In this document: positions 3-15,206 of the stretch, one piece after another
Layout of the letters: each line of letters starts with the position of its first letter
Position numbering within the stretch: position 1 is the stretch's first letter
Assembly: GCA_913055685.1 (NCBI GenBank)
Contig: CAJXKC010000002.1
Span: 372,001-436,000 of the forward strand
DNA length: 64,000 bases
Direction: 5' to 3'
Source of the DNA: an uncultured Flavobacteriales bacterium
GTDB taxonomy: Bacteria; Bacteroidota; Bacteroidia; Flavobacteriales; Schleiferiaceae
Made by a program: the position numbers and the translations under genes
The notes under the pieces: generated by a model
The model's database searches: none
Seen by the model: the letters and a program-made list of their open reading frames with translations, nothing else
Told to the model about the DNA's origin: nothing

Positions 3-1349
3 AGTATGGGGGCCGAACTAAAGGCACATTCTAAGTGGTTAAACTACGTTTATGTTAGCCATCCACAACCTGAGCTTATTGCTCATCTTGACTTTGTAAA
101 GCGCATCGAGTTTCCCAAGGCCCATCAATCGAATTTATCCGGGGTCGCAACAAATGATACTTTAAATTATGGATTTGGCCGTACTCAGGTTGAAATGCTG
201 GCCGGCGAAAAGCTTCACCAAAGAGGATTTACCGGAACAGGTATTACCATTGCCGTTATCGATGCTGGTTATATGGGTTATTTTGCCTCTAATGCCTTAG
301 ATAGCTTACGTAACTCCAATCGTTTCCTCGGTTCATGGAACTTTATAAATGGCGATACGAATGTATTTAGTGGTAATGGGAGTCACGGTGCCTCGGTACT
401 ATCTACAATGGCCGCCCTTCTACCAGATACTTTTGTGGGGACAGCTCCGCATGCTAATTATTGGTTATTAAGCTCCGAGAATGTGGCCCATGAACGTCCG
501 ATTGAAATGGATCATTGGCTGATGGCCGCAGAATTCGCTGATAGTGTGGGCGCGCATGTTATTAATTCGTCGCTAGGCTATACCACCTTTGATAATGCAT
601 CCAATGATTTTTCATACAGCGATATGGATGGTAATACTACGGTGGTTACTAAGGCAGCTGACTGGGCAGCCAGTAAAGGAATTTTGGTGGTAGCCAGTGT
701 CGGCAATAGCGGGGCGTCTAACTGGCGGTACCTCGGTGCACCTTCCGATGGTGACTCAGTTTTAGCGGTAGGAGCGGTTAATTGGCAAGGAAATTACGCC
801 AGCTTCTCGAGTCACGGTCCCAGTGCCGATGGTAGAGTAAAGCCCGATGTGGTTGCTCAAGGCTCTCCAGCGACCATTAGCGATATGATGGGCAATGTAT
901 CCATAGGATTTGGTACCTCATTTTCCGGACCAATTATCGCTGGTATGGCCGCTTGTTTAATAGAAGCCTATCCAGCGAAACACAGCGAGGAAATCGCGGA
1001 TCAAATTAGAAAGTCGGCCCATTTATATGCTAGTCCCACTGATACCATGGGCTATGGTATTCCTAACTTCGACTTGGCATATGTGCTTAATCAGCCCGAA
1101 TACATTAGCAACGAATCACAATTAAGCCTTTATCCAAACCCCATAAAGGATTACCTAATCATTGATTCGAAAGGCCTTAAAAATTGGGATGTTAATTGGC
1201 GTATTGTTGACCTGAACGGACGAGTTATAAAAGCTGGTCAGTTAGGAGCTTATGATGCAGCTCGACTCAATTTAAATCTTGAATCTGGTATATATCAGCT
1301 TCAATTGGAAGGGGATTTTAATGCTAGTTATAAAATTGTAGTGCGATGA
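3..1349 (+). CDS. S8 family serine peptidase with T9SS type A sorting domain (5' end outside window)
   Basis: Secreted subtilisin-like endopeptidase. The catalytic triad is visible, counting from the first in-window Met (base 6): Asp86 in AVIDAGY, His127 in GSHGAS and Ser305 in GTSFSGP; the oxyanion Asn lies in INSSLGY. The last ~75 residues begin with LYPNP and end with a lysine/arginine-ending beta strand, typical of the type A C-terminal domain that directs cargo through the type IX secretion system. No signal peptide is seen, the frame stays open to the window edge, and the first residues resemble the end of an inhibitory propeptide, so the true start lies upstream. The stop overlaps the next start by 4 bases (ATGA), suggesting co-transcription. 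Family and catalytic residues are secure; the substrate is unknown. Confidence 0.93.
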   Translation, partial: SMGAELKAHSKWLNYVYVSHPQPELIAHLDFVKRIEFPKAHQSNLSGVATNDTLNYGFGRTQVEMLAGEKLHQRGFTGTGITIAVIDAGYMGYFASNALDSLRNSNRFLGSWNFINGDTNVFSGNGSHGASVLSTMAALLPDTFVGTAPHANYWLLSSENVAHERPIEMDHWLMAAEFADSVGAHVINSSLGYTTFDNASNDFSYSDMDGNTTVVTKAADWAASKGILVVASVGNSGASNWRYLGAPSDGDSVLAVGAVNWQGNYASFSSHGPSADGRVKPDVVAQGSPATISDMMGNVSIGFGTSFSGPIIAGMAACLIEAYPAKHSEEIADQIRKSAHLYASPTDTMGYGIPNFDLAYVLNQPEYISNESQLSLYPNPIKDYLIIDSKGLKNWDVNWRIVDLNGRVIKAGQLGAYDAARLNLNLESGIYQLQLEGDFNASYKIVVR

Positions 1350-2299
1350 AAAACCGCATAACGGCTTTATTTGGAATTGAAAAGCCCTTAATCCAGGCAG
1401 GAATGATTTGGTGTAGTGGCTGGGAATTAGCCACTGCCGTTTCCAAAGCTGGTGGTCTAGGTATTATTGGAGCAGGATCTATGTATCCCGATGTTTTACG
1501 AAGCCATATCGAAAAGGCCAAAGCGGCCTTGGGCGATAAACCTTTTGCGGTTAATGTGCCTATGCTTTATCCGCAGATAGAGGAATTAATGGCCATTATC
1601 ATTGAGCTAAAAGTGCCAATAGTATTCACTTCGGCAGGTAATCCCAAAACTTGGACCCAGCATCTAAAAGATCAAGGTATTGTTGTAGTACATGTTGTAA
1701 GTTCTTTAAAATTTGCTTTAAAGGCGGAAGTGGCTGGCGTAGATGCTGTGGTGGCTGAAGGTTTTGAAGCAGGAGGGCATAATGGTCGCGATGAAACTAC
1801 AAGCTTGGTATTATGGCCTATGGTCGCGAAAGAGCTTAAGGTGCCCATGATTGCTGCTGGTGGGATTGGCTCTGGAGCGCAGATAGCGGCGGCATTTGCA
1901 TTAGGTGCTGAAGGAGTACAAATAGGTTCACGCTTCGTGGCAAGTGAAGAAAGCTCGGCGCATCTCAACTTTAAAAACGCCGTTATTGCGGCTCAAGAAG
2001 GCGACACCATGCTTACCCTTAAAGAATTAGCTCCGGTACGTCTCATCAAGAATAAATTCTTTCAGGATGTGCAATCAGCCTATCAGGCCGGCGCTGGCGC
2101 AGAGCAATTGAAAGAATTACTCGGAAGAGCCCGAGCAAAGCGAGGCATGTTTGAAGGCGACTTAGAAGAAGGGGAGCTTGAAATAGGTCAGGTTTCGGGT
2201 ATGATTGCCGATTTAAAACCGGCGGCAGAAATAGTTAATGAGTTATGGTCCGATTATGAATCGACCCTGGCAAAGTTGCTACAATCTGCCCCTAACTAA
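1346..2299 (+). CDS. Nitronate monooxygenase / FabK-type FMN flavoprotein
   Basis: A 317-residue TIM-barrel flavoprotein of the nitronate monooxygenase (2-nitropropane dioxygenase) family, which oxidises alkyl nitronates with FMN and oxygen. Seen: the N-terminal IQAGM strand and GGLGIIGAG loop, EGFEAGGHNG near residue 140, and the FMN phosphate-binding run AAGGIGSG followed by GAEGVQIGSRF. The length is normal for the family. The same fold and motifs occur in the enoyl-ACP reductase FabK, so a fatty-acid role cannot be excluded from sequence alone. It is cytoplasmic, with no signal peptide. The start overlaps the stop of the upstream peptidase by 4 bases, so the two are probably translated from one message although no functional link is obvious. 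Confidence 0.85.
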   Translation: MKNRITALFGIEKPLIQAGMIWCSGWELATAVSKAGGLGIIGAGSMYPDVLRSHIEKAKAALGDKPFAVNVPMLYPQIEELMAIIIELKVPIVFTSAGNPKTWTQHLKDQGIVVVHVVSSLKFALKAEVAGVDAVVAEGFEAGGHNGRDETTSLVLWPMVAKELKVPMIAAGGIGSGAQIAAAFALGAEGVQIGSRFVASEESSAHLNFKNAVIAAQEGDTMLTLKELAPVRLIKNKFFQDVQSAYQAGAGAEQLKELLGRARAKRGMFEGDLEEGELEIGQVSGMIADLKPAAEIVNELWSDYESTLAKLLQSAPN

Positions 2300-2379: not shown

Positions 2380-5300
2380 ATGAAGCGCTTAAAAATCTTG
2401 TTAGTGGCAATCCTTGCCCTAGGTTCATTCAATATCCAAGCTTCCCACTTATTAGGGGGAGAAATCTATTGGGAATGTACCGCCAATGGTAATTATATTT
2501 TTACTCTTGTTTTGTACAGAGATTGTACAGGTATCACCATACCTACTGGAACCCAGATGATTAATGGCCCGGCAGGTAACATTGCTTGTACCTATATATC
2601 CTCCCTTTCGGGTGATGTTTCACCGGATTGCCCGAACACAGCACTAGACATTGATTGTGGCACCGGTAATTTTGCGGGAGACCCTGGAAGTATCGAGAAA
2701 GGTGTATACCGCAGTGCTCAGGTAAACCTTAGTGGCATACCGCCAGCGGCAGGTTGGGAATTTAGTTGGACTTCTTGTTGTAGGCCAACTTTACAAAACA
2801 CAAATGCCTCTGGTTATTACCTTCGCTCAGTGATGTATCCTTACACGCCCTTTGGCGCAACACAACCCCTAAATACTAGCACATGTTACGATAATTCTCC
2901 AGTATTTGCCCAGGATGCGAATGCGGTTACTTGTCCGGACTTCCTTTTTGAATTTAACCACTTACCCGCAGATAAGGACATTGACTCTTTAGTTTTTGAT
3001 TGGGCTAGTCCTTGGGATGCAGCTAATTCAGCAATTACCTTTAATCCTTCTGGTGCCAATGGATATGCATTTAACGCCCCCTTCCCAGATCAAACTGAAG
3101 ACCCTAACAATGGTCCCAATACTTTGGATCCAAGCTCGGGTGAGATCACTGCCCTGGCCAATGACCCGAATGAAGGTTGGTACGCTTCCTGTGTGGTAAT
3201 CAAGGAATACCGATGTGGTCAGCTTATTGGTGAGGTATATCGTGATGTTCCGCTTTATTATTTGGATGATACCGATTGTCCTACCAATAACAGTACCCCC
3301 TCGGCAGAAATCGATACGGCTATCTATACGACTGTACAACGTACTGGTAATGTATACCGAGTGCGTACTTATCCTCAGGATACCGTTCAGTTTAGGGTAG
3401 TAGCGCGAGACTTAGACCAGTTTGCTAATGGTGCTTTCCAAGAGATTTGTATGAAAGCGGGTGGTTTACAGCTCAATACCAATAACTACTCCTCGAGTAC
3501 TGGTTGTGACGGCGCAGCTCCTTGTGCGACGCTTACTTCTTTTAACTCGACCGGAACCTATTGTAGTGTAATTCAAAACACGGTAGAGTTCTTCTGGATA
3601 CCCGATTGTGTTCACCTAAACTTTGGTGGTTGTGGTACTGCTTCTAATACCTATTTCTTTACCGTTCGAATGCAGGATAATGGTTGTGCAGCCCCGAAAG
3701 TGGGTCTAGCGACGATTATTGTAGAAGTTATAGCGGGGGATCCTACGCCACCCGGACTCACCTGTGCCGACGTTCAGAAAGATGGTTCGGTACGCTTAAG
3801 CTGGAAAAAACCTGAGCTCGACTCGGTTCTAGAATTTAATTATTACCGGATATATGGCTCGTCTTCACCCAATGGCCCTTGGTCGGTGGTAGACAGTGTG
3901 CCTTATTACGATACTACTTCTACCATAGTTACCGCTATGGGCGCGAATAGCTATTACTGGATGCAGATGAGTACAGGTCCTTGTGACTTCTTGTCTTTAC
4001 CAAGTGATACGATTACCACCATGGATATGACCTTAACGGCGATTCCACCTGGAAGTCCGGAGTATGCCCAGCTGAGTTGGACGCCCTTGGATGGAGGCTT
4101 AGATGCCACTAGGGGTAATATATACGAGGTCTGGATAGAAGCGCCGGAGGGCAGTGGCAACTGGACCAAAGTAGGGGAGACCACCAATACTTCCTTTACC
4201 GATACGGTATCGGTATGTGATATGCTGGTCGCTTATCAGGTAAGGGTTCCGGATACTATTACTGGTTGTTATTCCGGTACCACGCAAGATACTGGTCGTT
4301 TCCAAGATCGTACCAACACTTCTAATCCGGACATCAGTACGGTTAGTGTGAACGGAAACGGCAATGCTACCTTAGACTGGGATGCGGCGCAAGTAGACGA
4401 TATCGTTCAGTTCTACATTTTCTATAACGATCCTTTAAATGGCTGGGTTATCGTTGATACAGTGGACGCTGGAGCCACGATGCCCTATGAGTGGGCAGAT
4501 AGTGATGCCGATTCACGTTCAGAGCAGTTTAAAGTGGTATCGGTAGATAGTTGTGGTAACCAGAGTGATGATCTTGCAGTATTACCTTACAATACTATTT
4601 ACCTGCGTAATTACTTGAATAAATGTGAAGGCTATTCTCAAATCAGTTGGAATGCTTACAAGGAATTCCCCAATGGAGTACATGAGTACCGGGTATGGGT
4701 AGAGATTACCGAAGCGGATGGTACCCAGATTCCACCGACGATCATGTCGGTAGCTTCTCCTGACGATACGACCTTCCGTCAGAATGTATTGGAGAAAGAT
4801 TTTGAATACTGTTATTGGATTGAGGCTCGTGATACCATTGCCAACTTGAGCTCTAACTCAAATCGCTTGTGTATTACGGCTGAAGTACCCCGTCAATCTC
4901 GTCAATTATACGTTTCTAAGGTGAGCAATGACTTTAGTCGCGGTTCATTAAACGTAGAGATTTACATCGATGGTCAGGCGGACGTACGAAGCTTCCAAAT
5001 CCAAAGAGCACCCGAATACTACGGTCCCTACAAGCAAATTGCTCAGGTAGGAAAGCCTACAGCGCCTCCTTACATCATCCGTTTCCAAGACTTCGGAGTA
5101 GAGGCGGATAAGTTCAATTACTTCTACCGCGTTACGGCAACCGATAGCTGTGGTGGCTACGATACCATTAGTAATATTGCCAACAACATTATTTTGAATG
5201 TGCGTGCGGCAGAGGATGTAACCAATCGCTTAAGCTGGAACTCTGTATTAGGCTGGGGAGGTTATGTTGAGAAATACGAGATCTACCGTAGTGTCGCCGG

Positions 5301-5805
5301 TTCAGGCGCCTATGAGAAGATTGGAGAAAATGTTACGGTAAACGGCCGTGAGGATACCACCTATATTGATTATGAGGTTCGCGATTTAGTTAAGGCGAAT
5401 CCCGATCAAGGTTCATACTGTTACTATGTAGTAGCGGTCGAAGGAAACAACCCGCAAGGAATAGTAGACAATCGCGGTAATGCGATTACCACGCTATCCA
5501 ATCAGGCTTGCAGCCAACAGGGAGCCAAGGTATACTTAGCCTCGGCCTTCCGTCCGGGAAGTACTATTGCTGAGAACCAATTCTACGGTCCGTCTTTACG
5601 CCTGGCCAATGTTGAGGACTATGAGTTCTACATCATGAATCGTTGGGGTAAGAAGGTCTTTGAGACCATTGATCCTAACGAGAAGTGGGACGGAAAAGTG
5701 GGCGGTAGTCCAGCCCCTCAAGGTGTTTACGTATACTTTATTAAATACGCGACCCCCGGTGATAAACCGGTCGACGAAAGAGGGAACTTCACCTTGATTC
5801 GTTAG
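2380..5805 (+). CDS. Giant secreted protein with gliding motility-associated (T9SS type B) C-terminal domain, copy 1
   Basis: Exported cell-surface protein of 1,141 residues. A signal peptide (MKRLKILLVAILALGSF, cut near QAS) is followed by a Cys-rich N-terminal third, then repeated beta-sandwich (fibronectin III-like) segments from about residue 455 (for example GSVRLSWKKPELDSV), and a final ~85 residues with NRWGKKVF, WDGKVGG and PQGVYVYFIKY. That ending is the gliding motility-associated C-terminal domain, which sends proteins through T9SS and often anchors them by PorSS-type machinery. The ATG at 2380 is preferred over an upstream TTG because the TTG lies inside the -7 box and the ATG gives a signal peptide matching the paralogue. 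It probably acts as adhesin or matrix protein. It has a near-identical tandem partner downstream. Confidence 0.9.
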   Translation: MKRLKILLVAILALGSFNIQASHLLGGEIYWECTANGNYIFTLVLYRDCTGITIPTGTQMINGPAGNIACTYISSLSGDVSPDCPNTALDIDCGTGNFAGDPGSIEKGVYRSAQVNLSGIPPAAGWEFSWTSCCRPTLQNTNASGYYLRSVMYPYTPFGATQPLNTSTCYDNSPVFAQDANAVTCPDFLFEFNHLPADKDIDSLVFDWASPWDAANSAITFNPSGANGYAFNAPFPDQTEDPNNGPNTLDPSSGEITALANDPNEGWYASCVVIKEYRCGQLIGEVYRDVPLYYLDDTDCPTNNSTPSAEIDTAIYTTVQRTGNVYRVRTYPQDTVQFRVVARDLDQFANGAFQEICMKAGGLQLNTNNYSSSTGCDGAAPCATLTSFNSTGTYCSVIQNTVEFFWIPDCVHLNFGGCGTASNTYFFTVRMQDNGCAAPKVGLATIIVEVIAGDPTPPGLTCADVQKDGSVRLSWKKPELDSVLEFNYYRIYGSSSPNGPWSVVDSVPYYDTTSTIVTAMGANSYYWMQMSTGPCDFLSLPSDTITTMDMTLTAIPPGSPEYAQLSWTPLDGGLDATRGNIYEVWIEAPEGSGNWTKVGETTNTSFTDTVSVCDMLVAYQVRVPDTITGCYSGTTQDTGRFQDRTNTSNPDISTVSVNGNGNATLDWDAAQVDDIVQFYIFYNDPLNGWVIVDTVDAGATMPYEWADSDADSRSEQFKVVSVDSCGNQSDDLAVLPYNTIYLRNYLNKCEGYSQISWNAYKEFPNGVHEYRVWVEITEADGTQIPPTIMSVASPDDTTFRQNVLEKDFEYCYWIEARDTIANLSSNSNRLCITAEVPRQSRQLYVSKVSNDFSRGSLNVEIYIDGQADVRSFQIQRAPEYYGPYKQIAQVGKPTAPPYIIRFQDFGVEADKFNYFYRVTATDSCGGYDTISNIANNIILNVRAAEDVTNRLSWNSVLGWGGYVEKYEIYRSVAGSGAYEKIGENVTVNGREDTTYIDYEVRDLVKANPDQGSYCYYVVAVEGNNPQGIVDNRGNAITTLSNQACSQQGAKVYLASAFRPGSTIAENQFYGPSLRLANVEDYEFYIMNRWGKKVFETIDPNEKWDGKVGGSPAPQGVYVYFIKYATPGDKPVDERGNFTLIR
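3691..5765 (+). repeat. Direct repeat unit A, 2,075 bases identical to 7251-9325
   Basis: Line-by-line comparison at an offset of 3,560 bases shows no difference between 3691-5765 and 7251-9325. The last mismatch before it is at 3690/7250 and the first after it at 5766/9326. Flanking coding sequence upstream differs at many synonymous positions, so the identity is not explained by selection on protein. Confidence 0.95.
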
Positions 5806-5823
5806 TAATCGTTAAATCATTAA

Positions 5824-5848
5824 AACCTCCCTTTGGGGAGGTTTTTTT
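5824..5848 (+). terminator. Rho-independent terminator after CHU copy 1
   Basis: Stem AACCTCCC (5824-5831) pairs with GGGAGGTT (5836-5843) around a 4-base loop, followed by a T run. It separates the two tandem genes into their own transcripts. Confidence 0.9.
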
Positions 5849-5933
5849 ATGCCGTAAAACCAGACCTTATGTCCATTATTTAGTTTTAAGGCTCTTAAAC
5901 TAATCCGCACTTTACAGCGAGCTTATCATATTA

Positions 5934-5941
5934 TACATTTA
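5934..5941 (+). promoter_or_regulatory. Candidate -7 box of CHU copy 2
   Basis: TACATTTA matches TAnnTTTG at five of its six fixed positions and lies 19 bases before the ATG at 5961. I see no clear -33 TTG. It is weaker than the copy 1 promoter, which would allow different expression of the two copies. Confidence 0.4.
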
Positions 5942-5960
5942 GCACTGCAAAACTTACATA

Positions 5961-8900
5961 ATGAAGAATCTTAAATTTCTCTTAGCGCTATTACTGAGTA
6001 CAAGCTTTTTTTCCAGTTCCGCTTCCCACTTATTAGGAGGTGAGATTTACTGGGAGTGTACCGCTAATGGTAATTACATTTTCACCTTAGTGCTTTACCG
6101 TGATTGTACCGGAGCGTCTATGCCTACCGGAACCCAGTTTATTAACGGACCAGCAGGTAATATTGCCTGTACTTATATTGCTTCTCTGTCGGGTGATGTA
6201 TCACCAGATTGTCCCCAAACTTCCTTGGATATCAACTGTGCCGCGGGCGATGATGGGGCGATAGAAAAAGGAGTTTTCCGTAGTGCTCAGGTGAACCTCA
6301 ATGGTATTCCACCGGCGGCGGGTTGGGAATTTAGCTGGTCACTCTGTTGTAGACCTACTTTGGAAAATTCTCAGGGTAATACTAACTATTACCTGCGTTC
6401 CAAAATGTATCCTTACACGCCATTTGGAGCAACTCAACCTCTAAACACCAGCACTTGTTACGATAACTCACCCACTTTTGCGCAGGACGCTAACGCGGTA
6501 ACTTGTCCGGATTTTCTTTTCGAGTTTAACCACTTACCTTCAGATAGAGATATTGATTCTCTAGTATTTGATTGGGCACAGCCTAAATTGCAAGCTGCTC
6601 AGAATATTGCATTTAATACGGGTTACCAATTTAACGCCCCTTTCCCAGATCAAACTGAGGACCCTAATAATGGTCCCAACACCTTAGATCCATTTTCGGG
6701 TGAGATTACCACTTTGGCCAATGACCCGAATGAAGGTTGGTATGCTTCCTGTGTAGTTATTAAGGAATACCGATGTGGTCAGCTTATTGGTGAGGTGTAC
6801 CGTGACGTGCCAATTTATTATTTAGATGATACCGATTGTCCTACCAATAACAGTACCCCCTCGGCAGAGATTGATACCGCTATCTATACGACTGTGCAAC
6901 GTACCGGTAATGTGTACCGGGTGCGTACTTATCCTCAGGATACGGTGCAGTTTAGGGTTGTAGCGCGAGACTTAGACCAGTTTGCCAATGGGTCTTTCCA
7001 AGAGATTTGTATGAAAGCAGGTGGTTTACAGCTCAATACCAATAACTACGCCTCGAGTACTGGTTGTGACGGCGCAGCTCCTTGTGCGACGCTTACTTCT
7101 TTTAACTCTACCGGAACCTATTGTAGTGTAATTCAGAATACGGTAGAGTTTTTCTGGATACCCGATTGTGTTCACCTAAACTTTGGCGGTTGTGGTACTG
7201 CTTCCAATACTTATTATTTCACCGTTCGAATGGAGGACAATGGTTGTGCCGCCCCGAAAGTGGGTCTAGCGACGATTATTGTAGAAGTTATAGCGGGGGA
7301 TCCTACGCCACCCGGACTCACCTGTGCCGACGTTCAGAAAGATGGTTCGGTACGCTTAAGCTGGAAAAAACCTGAGCTCGACTCGGTTCTAGAATTTAAT
7401 TATTACCGGATATATGGCTCGTCTTCACCCAATGGCCCTTGGTCGGTGGTAGACAGTGTGCCTTATTACGATACTACTTCTACCATAGTTACCGCTATGG
7501 GCGCGAATAGCTATTACTGGATGCAGATGAGTACAGGTCCTTGTGACTTCTTGTCTTTACCAAGTGATACGATTACCACCATGGATATGACCTTAACGGC
7601 GATTCCACCTGGAAGTCCGGAGTATGCCCAGCTGAGTTGGACGCCCTTGGATGGAGGCTTAGATGCCACTAGGGGTAATATATACGAGGTCTGGATAGAA
7701 GCGCCGGAGGGCAGTGGCAACTGGACCAAAGTAGGGGAGACCACCAATACTTCCTTTACCGATACGGTATCGGTATGTGATATGCTGGTCGCTTATCAGG
7801 TAAGGGTTCCGGATACTATTACTGGTTGTTATTCCGGTACCACGCAAGATACTGGTCGTTTCCAAGATCGTACCAACACTTCTAATCCGGACATCAGTAC
7901 GGTTAGTGTGAACGGAAACGGCAATGCTACCTTAGACTGGGATGCGGCGCAAGTAGACGATATCGTTCAGTTCTACATTTTCTATAACGATCCTTTAAAT
8001 GGCTGGGTTATCGTTGATACAGTGGACGCTGGAGCCACGATGCCCTATGAGTGGGCAGATAGTGATGCCGATTCACGTTCAGAGCAGTTTAAAGTGGTAT
8101 CGGTAGATAGTTGTGGTAACCAGAGTGATGATCTTGCAGTATTACCTTACAATACTATTTACCTGCGTAATTACTTGAATAAATGTGAAGGCTATTCTCA
8201 AATCAGTTGGAATGCTTACAAGGAATTCCCCAATGGAGTACATGAGTACCGGGTATGGGTAGAGATTACCGAAGCGGATGGTACCCAGATTCCACCGACG
8301 ATCATGTCGGTAGCTTCTCCTGACGATACGACCTTCCGTCAGAATGTATTGGAGAAAGATTTTGAATACTGTTATTGGATTGAGGCTCGTGATACCATTG
8401 CCAACTTGAGCTCTAACTCAAATCGCTTGTGTATTACGGCTGAAGTACCCCGTCAATCTCGTCAATTATACGTTTCTAAGGTGAGCAATGACTTTAGTCG
8501 CGGTTCATTAAACGTAGAGATTTACATCGATGGTCAGGCGGACGTACGAAGCTTCCAAATCCAAAGAGCACCCGAATACTACGGTCCCTACAAGCAAATT
8601 GCTCAGGTAGGAAAGCCTACAGCGCCTCCTTACATCATCCGTTTCCAAGACTTCGGAGTAGAGGCGGATAAGTTCAATTACTTCTACCGCGTTACGGCAA
8701 CCGATAGCTGTGGTGGCTACGATACCATTAGTAATATTGCCAACAACATTATTTTGAATGTGCGTGCGGCAGAGGATGTAACCAATCGCTTAAGCTGGAA
8801 CTCTGTATTAGGCTGGGGAGGTTATGTTGAGAAATACGAGATCTACCGTAGTGTCGCCGGTTCAGGCGCCTATGAGAAGATTGGAGAAAATGTTACGGTA

Positions 8901-9365
8901 AACGGCCGTGAGGATACCACCTATATTGATTATGAGGTTCGCGATTTAGTTAAGGCGAATCCCGATCAAGGTTCATACTGTTACTATGTAGTAGCGGTCG
9001 AAGGAAACAACCCGCAAGGAATAGTAGACAATCGCGGTAATGCGATTACCACGCTATCCAATCAGGCTTGCAGCCAACAGGGAGCCAAGGTATACTTAGC
9101 CTCGGCCTTCCGTCCGGGAAGTACTATTGCTGAGAACCAATTCTACGGTCCGTCTTTACGCCTGGCCAATGTTGAGGACTATGAGTTCTACATCATGAAT
9201 CGTTGGGGTAAGAAGGTCTTTGAGACCATTGATCCTAACGAGAAGTGGGACGGAAAAGTGGGCGGTAGTCCAGCCCCTCAAGGTGTTTACGTATACTTTA
9301 TTAAATACGCGACCCCCGGTGATAAGCCGGTCGACGAAAGAGGAAACTTTACTTTAGTGCGATAA
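5961..9365 (+). CDS. Giant secreted protein with gliding motility-associated (T9SS type B) C-terminal domain, copy 2
   Basis: Tandem paralogue of the gene ending at 5805, 1,134 residues with its own signal peptide (MKNLKFLLALLLSTSF, cut before SASH). It shares the mature start ASHLLGGEIYWEC, the Cys-rich N-terminal third, the fibronectin-like middle and the T9SS type B ending. Amino-acid differences from copy 1 are clustered in the N-terminal third: the segments after SLDIN, around LCCRPTLEN and around WAQPKLQ, the last including a length change. From VGLATIIVEV to near the end the proteins are identical. The role is probably surface adhesion or gliding-associated matrix; the variable loops would then face the ligand. 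It has its own terminator. Confidence 0.9.
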   Translation: MKNLKFLLALLLSTSFFSSSASHLLGGEIYWECTANGNYIFTLVLYRDCTGASMPTGTQFINGPAGNIACTYIASLSGDVSPDCPQTSLDINCAAGDDGAIEKGVFRSAQVNLNGIPPAAGWEFSWSLCCRPTLENSQGNTNYYLRSKMYPYTPFGATQPLNTSTCYDNSPTFAQDANAVTCPDFLFEFNHLPSDRDIDSLVFDWAQPKLQAAQNIAFNTGYQFNAPFPDQTEDPNNGPNTLDPFSGEITTLANDPNEGWYASCVVIKEYRCGQLIGEVYRDVPIYYLDDTDCPTNNSTPSAEIDTAIYTTVQRTGNVYRVRTYPQDTVQFRVVARDLDQFANGSFQEICMKAGGLQLNTNNYASSTGCDGAAPCATLTSFNSTGTYCSVIQNTVEFFWIPDCVHLNFGGCGTASNTYYFTVRMEDNGCAAPKVGLATIIVEVIAGDPTPPGLTCADVQKDGSVRLSWKKPELDSVLEFNYYRIYGSSSPNGPWSVVDSVPYYDTTSTIVTAMGANSYYWMQMSTGPCDFLSLPSDTITTMDMTLTAIPPGSPEYAQLSWTPLDGGLDATRGNIYEVWIEAPEGSGNWTKVGETTNTSFTDTVSVCDMLVAYQVRVPDTITGCYSGTTQDTGRFQDRTNTSNPDISTVSVNGNGNATLDWDAAQVDDIVQFYIFYNDPLNGWVIVDTVDAGATMPYEWADSDADSRSEQFKVVSVDSCGNQSDDLAVLPYNTIYLRNYLNKCEGYSQISWNAYKEFPNGVHEYRVWVEITEADGTQIPPTIMSVASPDDTTFRQNVLEKDFEYCYWIEARDTIANLSSNSNRLCITAEVPRQSRQLYVSKVSNDFSRGSLNVEIYIDGQADVRSFQIQRAPEYYGPYKQIAQVGKPTAPPYIIRFQDFGVEADKFNYFYRVTATDSCGGYDTISNIANNIILNVRAAEDVTNRLSWNSVLGWGGYVEKYEIYRSVAGSGAYEKIGENVTVNGREDTTYIDYEVRDLVKANPDQGSYCYYVVAVEGNNPQGIVDNRGNAITTLSNQACSQQGAKVYLASAFRPGSTIAENQFYGPSLRLANVEDYEFYIMNRWGKKVFETIDPNEKWDGKVGGSPAPQGVYVYFIKYATPGDKPVDERGNFTLVR
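7251..9325 (+). repeat. Direct repeat unit B, 2,075 bases identical to 3691-5765
   Basis: Second copy of the perfect repeat, covering the 3' 61 percent of the second CHU-type gene. No transposase, target duplication or other mobile-element sign borders it, which points to tandem duplication with later gene conversion. Confidence 0.95.
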
Positions 9366-9386
9366 GCATTTGTAAATGAGAGAGAT

Positions 9387-9424
9387 GAATATCCCTTCCC
9401 CAACCGGAAGGGATATTCTTTTTT
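9387..9424 (+). terminator. Rho-independent terminator after CHU copy 2
   Basis: A 13-base-pair stem GAATATCCCTTCC / GGAAGGGATATTC (9387-9399 and 9406-9418) with a 6-base loop is followed by six T. Confidence 0.93.
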
Positions 9425-9459
9425 AGGAAATATAAATACTGCCTATCCCTTTAAGATTA

Positions 9460-9492
9460 TTGCCGAGCACTCATTAAAAAATGCTAAATTTG
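9460..9492 (+). promoter_or_regulatory. guaB promoter
   Basis: TTG at 9460-9462 and a perfect -7 box TAAATTTG at 9485-9492 with a 22-base spacer, 31 bases before the guaB ATG. Confidence 0.8.
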
Positions 9493-9523
9493 CGCGCAAT
9501 TTAATTCTAATTGCATCCGCTCT

Positions 9524-10999
9524 ATGTCAACTTTTAGCGATAAAATCATGGGTGAAGGTTTAACCTATGACGACGTACTTTTAGTACCAGCATATTCTCA
9601 AGTATTGCCACGCGAAGTTGATCTCACTACCCACTTTACTCGTAATATAAAGCTTAAGGCTCCGATTATTTCCGCGGCTATGGATACCGTGACCGAAGCT
9701 CGTATGGCTATTGCAATTGCGCAGGATGGTGGCATTGGGGTCCTTCATAAAAACATGACCATCGAGCAGCAAGCGGTGGAAGTACGTAATGTTAAGCGAG
9801 CGGAAAGCGGGATGATTCTCGACCCGGTTACTTTACAAGAAAACGCCTTAGTGCGTGATGCCAAGAAAATGATGGCCGATTACAAAATTGGCGGTATCCC
9901 AATCGTTAATGAGCATAAGAAGCTGATGGGGATTATCACCAATCGTGATTTGCGCTTCGAAAAGAATGATGATCGTCCTTTACGTGAAATCATGACTAAA
10001 GACGGTCTGGTAACTACCCATGAAAATACCAGCTTAACCGAAGCAGAGGTTATCCTACAACAACATAAGATTGAAAAGCTTCCAGTAGTAGATAAAGAAG
10101 GTAAACTAATTGGTTTAATCACTTATCGCGATATCACTAAGAGTAATATCAAACCGAATGCTAATAAAGACGATTACGGTCGTTTACGCGTTGCCGCTGC
10201 AGTTGGTGTTACCGCAGATGTTTTAGATCGAGTAGGTGCATTAGTAGAATCCAATGTAGACGCCATTATTATAGATACAGCTCACGGTCATAGTGCCGGA
10301 GTGGTAAAGGCTTTAAAAGCCGTAAAAGCGAAATTTACTGGCTTGGATGTGGTGGTAGGTAATGTAGCAACAGCTGATGCTTCTCGCTATTTAGCCGATG
10401 CAGGTGCCGATGCGGTGAAAGTGGGTATTGGTCCTGGTTCTATCTGTACTACCAGAGTAGTAGCGGGGGTAGGAGTACCGCAGCTTACGGCGATCATGGA
10501 AGCGAAAAAAGGTTTAGTTGGAACTGATGTTCCGCTTATTGCCGACGGTGGTATCCGTTTTACTGGAGATATTGTGAAGGCGGTAGCCGCTGGTGCAGAT
10601 ACGGTGATGTTAGGATCTTTACTAGCCGGAACTAAAGAAGCCCCAGGCGAAACTATTATTTACGAAGGACGACGTTACAAGACTTATCGTGGTATGGGTT
10701 CTATTGAGGCCATGCAACAAGGGTCAAAGGACCGTTACTTCCAGGATGTGGAAGATGATATCAAGAAATTAGTTCCTGAAGGCATTGTGGGTAGAGTTGC
10801 TTATAAAGGTGAAGTTGGTGAAGTAATGTATCAGTTTATTGGGGGCTTACGCGCCGGAATGGGATATTGCGGAGCCAAAGACATTAAAACCTTACAAGAA
10901 ACCGGTAAGTTTACCCGAATTACCGCGGCTGGTGTACACGAAAGTCATCCACATGACGTTCACATTACCCGCGAATCGCCAAATTACAGTAGAAGATAA
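9524..10999 (+). CDS. guaB: IMP dehydrogenase
   Basis: Oxidises IMP to XMP with NAD+, the committed step of GTP synthesis, in the cytosol. The 491-residue length is normal. The order is barrel start ([15 protein letters not shown]), two CBS domains at about residues 95-205 inserted in the barrel, then the catalytic loop GPGSICTTR with nucleophile Cys308, the IMP phosphate site IADGGIR, the mobile flap GMGSIEAM, and the [15 protein letters not shown] segment. Start ATG 9524 follows a strong promoter. The parvulin gene starts 26 bases after the stop with no terminator between, so read-through is likely. Identification is secure. Confidence 0.98.
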
Positions 11000-11025
11000 T
11001 AACCCTATTTTACAATTTTAGATTG

Positions 11026-12999
11026 ATGAAGAAGACTCTGTTTTTACTTTGCGCATTGGGCTTGATGCAGCCTTTAGTTGGACAAGAAAAATTGGCTGAC
11101 AAGGTCTTATTTACAGTGGCAGACGACACTGTGAAGGCGGAAGAATTCATTGCGGTTTACAATAAAAACCGAGATATTGGTGAGGAAATTGATCCCAAAA
11201 CCCCATCCGAGTATTTAGAACTTTACATCAACTTTAAGCTTAAAGTACACGAGGCTAAAGCTTTAGGTCGGGATACCTTGCGTTCCTTTGTGAGGGAATT
11301 TCAAAACTATCGCGACCAATTAGCAAAACCTTATTTATCGGATAAGGATGTAACAAAAGAGCTCATCAAAGAGGCTTACACTCGCATGAAAACAGATGTT
11401 AGAGCGGCACATATAATGATAAGCCTGCCTAACAATCCTACTCCAGATGATACCGCGGCTGCTTACAAGGAAATTATGGAAATCCGCAAAAGAGTAACTA
11501 CTGGGGGGGAATCTTTTGATCTTGTAGCCCGCGAATATTCCGATGATACTTACAGCGCTCGAAATGGTGGAGACCTTGGTTATTTCACCGTATTTGATAT
11601 GGTATACCCATTTGAAACCGCCGCCTATACTACTAAGGTTGGCAAAGTTTCTTCGCCAGTACGTAGTCAGTATGGATATCATATAGTGATGCCCACCGAT
11701 CGTCGTCCAGCACGAGGAAAAATCAAAGTAGCGCACTTAATGCTCATCGACAACGATAAGACCACGGCTGATCAAAAAGCCAATGTGAAGAAGAGAATCG
11801 ATGAAATCTATGCTAAGCTTAAGGCAGGAGAAGACTTTGTGACCTTGGTTAAGCAGTATAGTGAAGACAAGACTTCGGTAGTCCGCGACGGACAATTAGA
11901 TGTATTCGGCATCAACAAAATGTACGATACTTTTGAGGATGCTGCATTTGCGCTCCAAGACAGTGGTCAGTTTACCGAGCCAGTAAAAACTCCTGTAGGT
12001 TGGCATATAATCTTACTCTTGGATAAAATTGGCGTGCCTTCTTTTGAATCCGTGAAGGCTGAAATTCGCAATAAAGTAGAGCGCGACGTACGTGCACAAC
12101 AGAGTCAGGTTTCCGTGAAGAAGCGCATCAAGATGGATTACAAGTTTAAAGAGTACCCAAAGGACTTTAAACTGGCATTTAATCAAATTGGTGAGGAAAT
12201 GCTTCAATCGGGCTTCAAAGTACCGGCAAAGGTTAAGTCAGCTGATAAAGTATTATTTGAGTTTGCCAATAAGCAATATACTGTAGCGGATTTCCTTGCT
12301 TACGCTGAAGCACATCAGGGCGCTTACACCCGCAGTACAAAGATTGAAGCTTCTTTGTACCGGATGATGAAGGTCTACCAAGAAGAAGAGCTATTAAATT
12401 ATGAAAAGAGTCGTTTAGCCGAGAAATTCCCTGAGTTCCGTTTATTGGAGCGCGAATACTATGAAGGGATTTTACTATTTGATTTAACGGAAGAGAAGGT
12501 TTGGCGTGCGGCCATGAGTGATACGACCGGTTTAGCGGAGTATTTTGCGGCTAACCGCGATAAGTATCGTTTTGATACCCGTTACCATGCCTACATTGTA
12601 GACGCTGCGACTAAAAAACTAGCCAAGAAGGCCATCAAATTGCTTAAAAAGGGTATGAGTAGAGCTCAGGTAATGACTGAGCTTAACGTAGAGTCCAAGC
12701 TGAATTTAAACATCGATAGCGCGAAGTTTGAATTAGATGGCTTAGATATTGCTTCCGCCTTGAGCGAAATGGATGAAGCCGGAAAATCGGATATGCTTGA
12801 AATCAATGAGCGCTATAAGCAGGCATATGTTTTAGATATCGAAGCTCCTCGTCAGAAAGAGTTGAAAGAATCTCGCGGTGCGGTTATTAGTGATTATCAA
12901 AACTATCTAGAGCAGCAATGGATAAAAGATTTGCGCTCTAAATATGCAGTAAAAGTGGATCAAGCTGTATTAAAGGAGGTAGAGGCAGCGCTTGATTAA
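11026..12999 (+). CDS. Periplasmic parvulin-type peptidylprolyl isomerase, two PpiC domains
   Basis: Exported folding catalyst of 657 residues. The signal peptide is MKKTLFLLCALGLMQPLVGQ. A SurA-like N-terminal helical part precedes two parvulin domains, the first near residue 125 (AAHIMISLP, YHIVMP) and the second near residue 230 (KVAHLMLID, GWHIILL). A long C-terminal segment of about 300 residues, rich in charged helices, resembles nothing I can name. An in-frame TTG three bases upstream was rejected in favour of ATG 11026. The gene heads a run of three chaperone-like genes with overlapping ends; such proteins usually escort outer-membrane beta-barrels or T9SS components. Enzyme family is secure, client proteins are not known. 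Confidence 0.9.
   Translation: MKKTLFLLCALGLMQPLVGQEKLADKVLFTVADDTVKAEEFIAVYNKNRDIGEEIDPKTPSEYLELYINFKLKVHEAKALGRDTLRSFVREFQNYRDQLAKPYLSDKDVTKELIKEAYTRMKTDVRAAHIMISLPNNPTPDDTAAAYKEIMEIRKRVTTGGESFDLVAREYSDDTYSARNGGDLGYFTVFDMVYPFETAAYTTKVGKVSSPVRSQYGYHIVMPTDRRPARGKIKVAHLMLIDNDKTTADQKANVKKRIDEIYAKLKAGEDFVTLVKQYSEDKTSVVRDGQLDVFGINKMYDTFEDAAFALQDSGQFTEPVKTPVGWHIILLLDKIGVPSFESVKAEIRNKVERDVRAQQSQVSVKKRIKMDYKFKEYPKDFKLAFNQIGEEMLQSGFKVPAKVKSADKVLFEFANKQYTVADFLAYAEAHQGAYTRSTKIEASLYRMMKVYQEEELLNYEKSRLAEKFPEFRLLEREYYEGILLFDLTEEKVWRAAMSDTTGLAEYFAANRDKYRFDTRYHAYIVDAATKKLAKKAIKLLKKGMSRAQVMTELNVESKLNLNIDSAKFELDGLDIASALSEMDEAGKSDMLEINERYKQAYVLDIEAPRQKELKESRGAVISDYQNYLEQQWIKDLRSKYAVKVDQAVLKEVEAALD
12972..12980 (+). 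promoter_or_regulatory. Strong ribosome binding site supporting a TTG start
   Basis: AAAGGAGGT, an almost full anti-16S complement, ends 11 bases before TTG 12992. Such sites are uncommon in Bacteroidota, and here it supports the non-ATG start of the lipoprotein gene. Confidence 0.55.
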
Positions 13000-13864
13000 A
13001 AGAAGCTTTCATATCACCCTATACCTTCTAGTACTGTTATTGAGCGCCTGCGACTTCATCGAAAGTTTTGAAGGTGAAGAGGATAAAGGTAAAATGATTG
13101 CTAGGGTCTACGACTCCTATCTTTTTGAAGCCGATATCCAAAATGTTCTCCCCAGTGATTTAAGTAAGGACGACAGTGCCAGCTTCGTGCAAAATTACAT
13201 CAATGTATGGGCCAAGAATCAGTTGATGATTTATAAGGCGGAGTTTAACTTAACGGATGATGACAAGCGATTTGAGGAGCAGATTCGCAATTACCGTAAT
13301 GATCTTTTAAAATTTGCTTTTTTACAGAAGTATGTAGATGATCGTTTAGACACTGCCATTACCGACGCTCAGATAAAGGAATACTACCGCGATAATGAAG
13401 ATGACTTTCAATTGAAGGAAAACATCCTGCGGATGCGATATATAAGCGTACCTGTGGATGCACCTAATATTGATGAGCTTAAGAAATTATTTCGAACCCG
13501 TGACAGTTCTAAGCAAGAGGCTTTATTGGATTATGCCCTAAGTTATGCCCGCAACTTTTCTTTAGAGGACACTTCTTGGATGAGCTTTAATCAATTTCGC
13601 AAACTCATTCCTATCCAAGCTTACAATCAACAGGAGTTTCTATCTAAAAACTCATACCTTGAGCTGGAATCACAGGGACTTATGTACTTAGTCTCGATTG
13701 CAGAATATAAAATCAAAGACAATACTTCTCCGCTTCTATATGTGCGTAATATTATTCGCAATATCTTGTTGAATAAACGCCGCCTTGATTTAATTGCGGA
13801 TTTGGAAAAGAACTTACTTAGCGACGCTATAAAAAAGAAGGAATTTGAAACCTACGATGAATAA
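12992..13864 (+). CDS. SurA-like periplasmic lipoprotein
   Basis: Lipoprotein of 290 residues between two parvulin genes. The TTG start is chosen because the next residues form a signal peptide with lipobox (LLLLSAC, Cys20) and because a good Shine-Dalgarno site precedes it; no upstream ATG exists in frame. It overlaps the stop of the preceding gene by 8 bases and is overlapped by the next gene by 8 bases. The helical region around residues 45-140 (ending in ITDAQIKEYYRDNEDDF) resembles the SurA/PrsA N-terminal chaperone domain, and YISVP near residue 148 may be the remnant of a parvulin strand, but I see no complete catalytic domain. Inference: a non-enzymatic, membrane-tethered chaperone partner. 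Confidence 0.75.
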   Translation: MIKRSFHITLYLLVLLLSACDFIESFEGEEDKGKMIARVYDSYLFEADIQNVLPSDLSKDDSASFVQNYINVWAKNQLMIYKAEFNLTDDDKRFEEQIRNYRNDLLKFAFLQKYVDDRLDTAITDAQIKEYYRDNEDDFQLKENILRMRYISVPVDAPNIDELKKLFRTRDSSKQEALLDYALSYARNFSLEDTSWMSFNQFRKLIPIQAYNQQEFLSKNSYLELESQGLMYLVSIAEYKIKDNTSPLLYVRNIIRNILLNKRRLDLIADLEKNLLSDAIKKKEFETYDE

Positions 13865-15206
13865 ATACTACTTCGGAATACTGTTTTTTGTTTTGAGCCT
13901 AGGCTTAAGTGCGCAACCTCGACTGGTAGACGGCGTTCTTGGGGTAGTAGGTAAAAACATTATTCTAAAAAGTGATTTAGATAAAGCTTTAGAGGCTCAG
14001 AAAAAGCAAAACCCTGCCTTAAAGGTTGATCAGTGTACTGTTTTTGAAGACCTCTTGCTGGAAAAACTTTTACTGCATCAAGCTGAGCTCGATTCGGTAG
14101 AGGTTAGTGATGAAGAGGTGCAAGCCAATATTGATCGACGTATTAATGTCTTTATTCAACAAATTGGTAGTCAGCAGCGCCTTGAGCAATATTATGGAAA
14201 GTCGGTTGTCGAGATTAAAGAGGAAATGAGCGATCTTATTCGCAATCAGCTTACCGCCCAAAGAATGTTGCAGCAGATAAATGGAGACGTAGAAATCACG
14301 CCCTCCGAGGTGCGTGAATTTTACCAAGCAATCCCCCAGGACAGCTTGCCTCTTATTAATGCTGAAGTGGAGTATGCAGAAATAGTCTTTTTCCCTGAAG
14401 TTAGCGAAGAGGCTAAGCAAGAAGCGATTGATAAATTAAAAGAAATCAAAGGCAGAATTGAGAATGGCTCTTCCTTTAGTACGATGGCTGTTTTGTACTC
14501 AGAAGACCCAGGTAGTGCGCGTAATGGTGGCGAGTACAAAGGAATCAAGCGCGGTCAGTTTGTAAAAGAATTTGAAGCGGTAGCCTTTAACTTAGCCTTA
14601 AACGAGATTTCCGAACCTTTTGAATCAGAGTACGGCTATCATATCGTGCAATTGCAGCGGAAAGTGGGGCAGGAGTTAGACCTACGTCATGTCCTTATAA
14701 AGCCAAAGATTTCAGCTGAGAACCTCGAAAACGCAAAGAATAAGGCGGATAGTGTGCGTCAACTTATTTTAGACGACAAGCTAAGCTTTGTTGAAGCCGC
14801 CAAGGAGTTTTCCGATGATGAAGAAAGTAAGCTCAATGGTGGTAAAGCTATGAATCCTCAAACTGGTGATAGCCGTTGGGAAACCGGCCAATTGGATAAA
14901 GGAGTATTCTACACCTTACAGAACATTGAAGAGGGTACGATCTCGGCTCCATTATTTTTTACCACTCGCGATGAAAAGGAAGGCTACAAATTGGTTAAGT
15001 TAATAGACCGCACCGAAGCACACACCGCTAATCTCAAGACCGATTACCAAAGAATAATGCAAGTTGCCAAAGGGCAAAAGCAACAGAAAGAGCTTGAAAA
15101 GTGGGTTAATGATAAGATTTTAGACACTTACGTTAGGGTGAATAATGAGTACCTCAACTGCTCTTTCGAAAGAAATTGGATAAATCAAGCTCAATATGCA
15201 GAATAG
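13857..15206 (+). CDS. SurA-type peptidylprolyl isomerase, periplasmic
   Basis: Exported chaperone of 449 residues. Start ATG 13857 gives a signal peptide (MNKYYFGILFFVLSLGLSAQ); an in-frame TTG 12 bases upstream gives a poorer one. Residues 20-150 are a SurA N-terminal domain (VVGKNIILKSDLD, helices with DRRINVFIQQ). Two parvulin domains follow, near residues 175-275 (EIVFFPEVSEEA, YGYHIVQLQR) and 275-390 (LRHVLIKPKIS, FSDDEESKLNGG). Layout matches SurA, which carries unfolded outer-membrane proteins to the BAM complex. It overlaps the preceding lipoprotein by 8 bases and the following moxR by 11 bases, so translation is probably coupled. No exact surA symbol is given because several paralogues sit side by side. 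Confidence 0.9.
   Translation: MNKYYFGILFFVLSLGLSAQPRLVDGVLGVVGKNIILKSDLDKALEAQKKQNPALKVDQCTVFEDLLLEKLLLHQAELDSVEVSDEEVQANIDRRINVFIQQIGSQQRLEQYYGKSVVEIKEEMSDLIRNQLTAQRMLQQINGDVEITPSEVREFYQAIPQDSLPLINAEVEYAEIVFFPEVSEEAKQEAIDKLKEIKGRIENGSSFSTMAVLYSEDPGSARNGGEYKGIKRGQFVKEFEAVAFNLALNEISEPFESEYGYHIVQLQRKVGQELDLRHVLIKPKISAENLENAKNKADSVRQLILDDKLSFVEAAKEFSDDEESKLNGGKAMNPQTGDSRWETGQLDKGVFYTLQNIEEGTISAPLFFTTRDEKEGYKLVKLIDRTEAHTANLKTDYQRIMQVAKGQKQQKELEKWVNDKILDTYVRVNNEYLNCSFERNWINQAQYAE

Follow-up and report, generated by a model that had tools for sequence, protein, structure and literature searches.

Partial concerted evolution in a tandem array of predicted T9SS type B protein genes from an uncultured Flavobacteriales bacterium

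Lasting concerted evolution of duplicated genes has been described in prokaryotes, for example for tuf (PMC6053082). A partial form affects surface-protein paralogues of Helicobacter pylori, where, in the account given by PMC3960876 (citing Pride and Blaser 2002), the 3' segments of babA/babB and of homA/homB are alike within a strain and the 5' segments are alike between strains. In Porphyromonas gingivalis, T9SS surface proteins including Kgp and others undergo domain rearrangement and recombination (PMC5266723). The tandem array described here resembles the H. pylori genes, as far as that account portrays them, in that the 3' parts of surface-protein paralogues evolve in concert while the 5' parts follow orthology. 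The bab and hom genes, by the same account, encode outer-membrane proteins at separate loci of a human pathogen and vary at strain level, whereas in our case species of uncultured Flavobacteriales are compared, the genes are adjacent, their products are T9SS type B proteins, and nothing about the array points to phase or antigenic switching. The likeness to Kgp and the other P. gingivalis proteins, drawn here at the level of description, lies in the recombination of T9SS cargo in Bacteroidota; there, alleles and domains are exchanged between strains, whereas here conversion would act between two tandem copies in one genome. As in tuf-type cases, within-genome paralogues are closer than orthologues, synonymous sites included, and synteny is conserved; those cases mostly concern members of core complexes or pathways, whereas here a surface protein is involved and the 3' part alone is homogenised. 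A literature search on gene conversion and T9SS, with most subscription journals outside its scope, found no report of this array, which adds a clear further instance of a kind of event that has been described elsewhere among bacteria.

The two genes lie in a 64,000-nucleotide stretch (the window) of the genome designated G000. The features of the locus are as follows.

1346..2299, + strand: nitronate monooxygenase gene, conserved neighbour upstream of the array.
2380..5805, + strand: gene A, the upstream copy, an ORF of 1141 aa, with a signal peptide (by eye), an N-terminal region starting ASHLLGGEIYWEC, an FN3-like middle and a C-terminal CHU_C (T9SS type B) signal.
3691..5765, + strand: identical tract in gene A, from an exact-match search.
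5806..5960, + strand: A-B intergenic region with a terminator-like hairpin (AAAACCTCCCTTTGGGGAGGTTTTTTT) and the gene B promoter region, not homogenised.
5961..9365, + strand: gene B, the downstream copy, 1134 aa, with the same architecture as gene A.
6030..6713, + strand: unconverted 5' part of gene B (codons 24-252), which matches A at 74% and has near-saturated synonymous sites.
6714..7250, + strand: likely older converted stretch of gene B (codons 252-430), matching A at 92.7%.
7251..9325, + strand: gene B counterpart of the identical tract (codons 431-1122), from an exact-match search.
7305..7523, + strand: first FN3-like domain, gene B residues 449-521, a weak Pfam fn3 match below cut-off.
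9366..9523, + strand: intergenic region 3' of gene B, with its own hairpin and no match to the region after gene A.
9524..10999, + strand: guaB (IMP dehydrogenase), conserved neighbour downstream of the array.

For gene A, the ATG at 2380 was preferred over a TTG at 2356, the resulting 'MKRLKILL...ASHLLGGE' fitting the starts of relatives. By eye, the N-terminus has a basic start, a hydrophobic stretch and a conserved ...ASH junction. Both proteins carry a CHU_C type IX secretion signal at the C-terminus (PF13585 above cut-off, E 3e-10 for gene A), with TIGR04131 (Bac_Flav_CTERM) slightly below its cut-off (E 3e-7 for gene A, 30.7 bits against 35). On the evidence of these C-terminal matches, A and B are T9SS type B (CHU_C) proteins, predicted to be surface-bound or secreted. 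Likeness to FN3 begins at residue ~430-450, as indicated by a titin FN3 chain (E 1.8e-7, residues 429-525) and by Pfam fn3 below cut-off (E 0.007, gene B residues 449-521). No Pfam family matched the N-terminal 430 residues. The region starting with the motif given above (window 2380-3670 and 5961-7250) recurs in several other proteins of the genome, and is a candidate unnamed surface domain. A whole-protein AlphaFold2 model built from seven sequences was poor, with a mean pLDDT of 36.9.

Gene B is 95% identical to gene A overall, and this identity is distributed very unevenly. The longest exact match, at an offset of 3,560, is 2,075 bp (3691-5765 = 7251-9325), precisely the coordinates and length reported in an earlier note on this DNA, and when the block was searched against the full genome (2.96 Mb, 8 contigs, 99.93% complete), it turned up at these two places only. 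Change-point analysis resolved the A-B identity into steps, in gene B residues, of 74.2% (24-252), 92.7% (252-430) and 99.9% (431-1130). At the 3' end, the tract breaks off 40 bp short of the stop codons, past which the 3' UTRs and terminators of A and B are mutually unmatched, with a separate terminator-like hairpin after each gene. The 5' edge, one of the sharp edges claimed in the note, does not form a single cliff; it is the final and youngest of two or more steps, a shape that suggests earlier conversions.

The contrast is sharpest at synonymous sites. From 5' to 3', the synonymous p-distance falls from 0.80 through 0.56 to 0.26 (residues 300-430), and then to 0.00 over ~680 codons (residues 432-1115). 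None of the ~310 four-fold sites in the tract differs between A and B, placing its synonymous divergence at no more than ~1%. In a GENECONV-like test, the longest run of family-variable sites at which A and B agree was 1,187 of 1,892, a value that none of 5,000 permutations reached (p = 2e-4, the lowest attainable). Similarity in the tract thus extends to synonymous as well as replacement sites, as in concerted evolution. Purifying selection was considered as the source of the identity and is ruled out by the synonymous sites. The note's reasoning that such selection would leave synonymous differences in place, and that the block was therefore copied recently, agrees with the values of 0.00 inside the tract and 0.26-0.80 upstream of it; the many synonymous and replacement differences that it described 5' of the block are indeed present, and are mostly synonymous (dN 0.13 against a saturated dS).

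Exact identity of this kind is also what an assembly or polishing artefact could produce, if the true 3' halves differ and were merged by the assembler or by cross-mapped reads, or if only a single copy exists. In several short-read relatives (G001, G002, G022, G035) the contig does end inside the array. The window copies, however, are set apart by their 5' ends, their 3' ends and the intergenic regions, all on a single 835-kb contig (assembly of 8 contigs, 99.9% complete), and the same pattern, with some real differences, is found in single-contig genomes from other species, G003 (CP051243.1), G005 and G009. An assembly error behind the window identity is therefore unlikely, and we give it very little weight. 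Short-read assemblies (G001, G002, G035) break inside or at the array, and copy numbers in fragmented genomes are accordingly lower bounds.

To place the pair in its evolutionary context, we examined tandem relatives in six genomes of the same genus and in others of the family. The order subtilase, nitronate monooxygenase, one to three copies of the array gene, guaB and PpiC is conserved across the family and partly beyond it, with three copies present in G005. Promoter regions of first copies are 47-93% like those of other species' first copies, compared with 31-46% for second or third copies. In the tree of the 5' parts, the window pair are weak sisters (84/75) on long branches of 0.22 and 0.26, and so a lineage-specific duplication predating the conversion may have given rise to this pair. 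The great age of the 5' parts of the pair is certain: the duplication in the window is old, though possibly younger than some splits in the genus.

The weak sister relationship is also the point in favour of a recent whole-gene tandem duplication, after which the 5' part alone would have diverged fast. Against this, the 5' synonymous distance of 0.80 stands beside no synonymous differences in the 3' part, a contrast that is not a product of protein-level selection; tandem copies occupy the same syntenic place throughout the genus, with conserved first-copy promoter regions; and the 5' parts of the G004 copies are orthologous to those of other species. We consider such a history extremely improbable. 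Tandem position alone is also insufficient to force homogenisation, since the genome carries another tandem pair (C1:1511994-1515398) that has a protein identity of only 38% and is not homogenised. This pair (G000 C1:1509000-1518000, 2970-6675) encodes shorter related proteins of 616-618 aa.

The earlier note had attributed the block to gene conversion, predicting that copies within a genome would be closer to each other than to orthologues in the 3' part alone. Comparison of the syntenic arrays bore this out. Over residues 440-1085, within-genome identity is 100% in G000, 96-99% for G005_1/2, 83-98% in G003, 82-97% in G004 and 100% in G006, compared with 58-82% between species; the one exception between species is never-converted G005_3 with its orthologue G001_1, at 85-91%. 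The values of 82-83% in G003 and G004 belong to the beginning of the block (residues 440-600), which conversion did not cover in full in these two, and in G003 identity after residue 600 is 97-98%. Apart from the block start in G003 and G004, the 3' half is 94-100% identical within the genome in four species of the genus besides that of the window. The assembly of G006 is a short-read MAG of low coverage whose second copy contains a run of N, which makes its 2.9 kb of identity weaker evidence.

In the 5' part, by contrast, within-genome copies are mostly about as distant as orthologues. Over residues 24-150, G004_1 and G002_1 are 76.8% identical and G004_2 and G002_2 74.2%, against 62.6% for G004_1 and G004_2; likewise, G005_3 and G001_1 are 87.6% identical, against 63.7% for G005_1 and G005_3. 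A clade of G004_1 and G004_2 was rejected in the N-part tree (AU p = 5e-6), whereas the C-part tree joins the two copies as sisters, at 100/100 in every case, in G003, in G004 and for G005_1/2. The flanks of the tract thus keep an older history, seen in the rejected 5' clade of G004 and in positionally orthologous upstream regions; for the window pair, the tree instead leaves the 5' parts as weak sisters (84/75). The permutation test gave p = 2e-4 (the floor) for G000, G003, G004 and G006 and 0.012 for G005_1/2, compared with 0.1-0.33 for four cross-species pairs, and change-point analysis divided converted pairs into 2-5 segments while orthologous pairs formed one homogeneous segment.

Conversion was detected in five of the six assessable genomes of the genus; G001, with too little of its first copy present to judge, was left out of this count. 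Beyond the genus, the copies in G009 are 100% identical in residues 451-721 and 97.8% identical in residues 723-1130, compared with 61% in residues 24-262, and those in G064 (another genus) share a partial identical tract. No recent conversion was seen in G002 or in most other genera with tandem copies, a long identical tract being absent from the copies in G008, G014, G021, G023, G030, G048 and G059. In G009 (C1:143500-158500, ORFs 4023-6267/6241-7486), the reading frame of the first copy breaks in two around codon 721, within the near-identical tract, through either a genuine frameshift or an error in long-read sequencing. The tract ends just before the stop codon in G000, G003, G004, G005 and G009, where the 3' UTRs are dissimilar. 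In G000 (431), G005 (441) and G009 (411-451) the 5' edge falls close to where the FN3-like region begins; a fixed breakpoint at this domain border is not general, with edges elsewhere in G003 (543), G004 (640) and G006 (135).

These observations are very probably explained by old tandem paralogues whose 3' half has been repeatedly homogenised by gene conversion or an equivalent two-sided recombination, and the orthologue comparison and the recurrence in other species support the conversion first proposed for this pair. In our model, an old A/B pair occupies a fixed slot between the nitronate monooxygenase gene and guaB, and homologous recombination (ectopic gene conversion, presumably RecA-dependent) would repeatedly overwrite the 3' half of one copy. 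The latest event in the window genome is recent and covered at least 3691-5765/7251-9325; any direction of transfer is a matter of inference, donor and recipient being indistinguishable because both copies are homogenised. One or more older events probably produced the 93% identical stretch just upstream. Since recombination needs near-identical DNA, conversion would halt at the unrelated 3' UTRs and toward the 5' end, where identity of ~74% would make strand exchange inefficient. The process may be self-reinforcing, with each conversion renewing homology so that converted parts remain good substrates, while each copy retains its own promoter, signal peptide, N-terminal ~250 residues and terminator.

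Unequal crossing-over, through a transient three-copy stage and subsequent contraction, could replace conversion without crossover in this model, and the family copy number of 1-3, with three in G005, is in keeping with it. The tract, however, ends inside both genes and the 3' UTRs differ, so that a single crossover is insufficient and at least two exchanges are needed. We regard this route as rather unlikely; it differs from conversion in detail and has the same outcome.

The earlier note had pictured a constant secretion/anchor half and a varying, exposed N-terminal third. Between species the reverse is seen, the homogenised half changing faster (dN 0.18-0.25) than the N-terminal 430 residues (0.05-0.19). 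Nor is the tract simply a secretion/anchor half, as it holds ~600 residues of FN3-like and other sequence, the first FN3-like domain beginning 18 codons within it, in addition to the C-terminal CHU_C signal. Diversifying selection on the N-terminal part, giving variable ligand binding on a constant stalk, would fit the fact that it is the N-terminal end that is spared in G009 and in each of the five converted pairs within the genus. But loss of homology alone would spare this part; at the 5' end of the window pair dN is 0.13 while dS is saturated; and, of the two parts, it is the N-terminal one that changes less between species. No sign of diversifying selection was found there in the dN and dS values, in the window pair or between species, and the excess of replacement change in the variable part that antigenic variation would leave is absent, the N-terminal part being conserved between species. 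Diversifying selection is thus a doubtful explanation; selection preserving two N-terminal types is possible. More speculatively, the array may be a long-lived head-and-stalk module of Flavobacteriales, in which an FN3-like stalk and secretion half are matched within the cell and drift between species, and two to three N-terminal head types with their own promoters are kept for different partners.

The array, near-universal in the family, offers a clean and replicated case of partial concerted evolution in tandem T9SS type B genes, for which whole-gene trees would mislead on the age of duplication. Its single syntenic slot provides a natural series of conversion tracts of varied ages and boundaries, usable for studying the limits that sequence divergence sets on recombination in bacteria not yet in culture. 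Three further genes lie 3' of guaB (window 11023-15206), two PpiC/SurA-type peptidyl-prolyl isomerases flanking a 290-aa protein without a Pfam match, placing periplasmic chaperone genes beside the surface-protein array.
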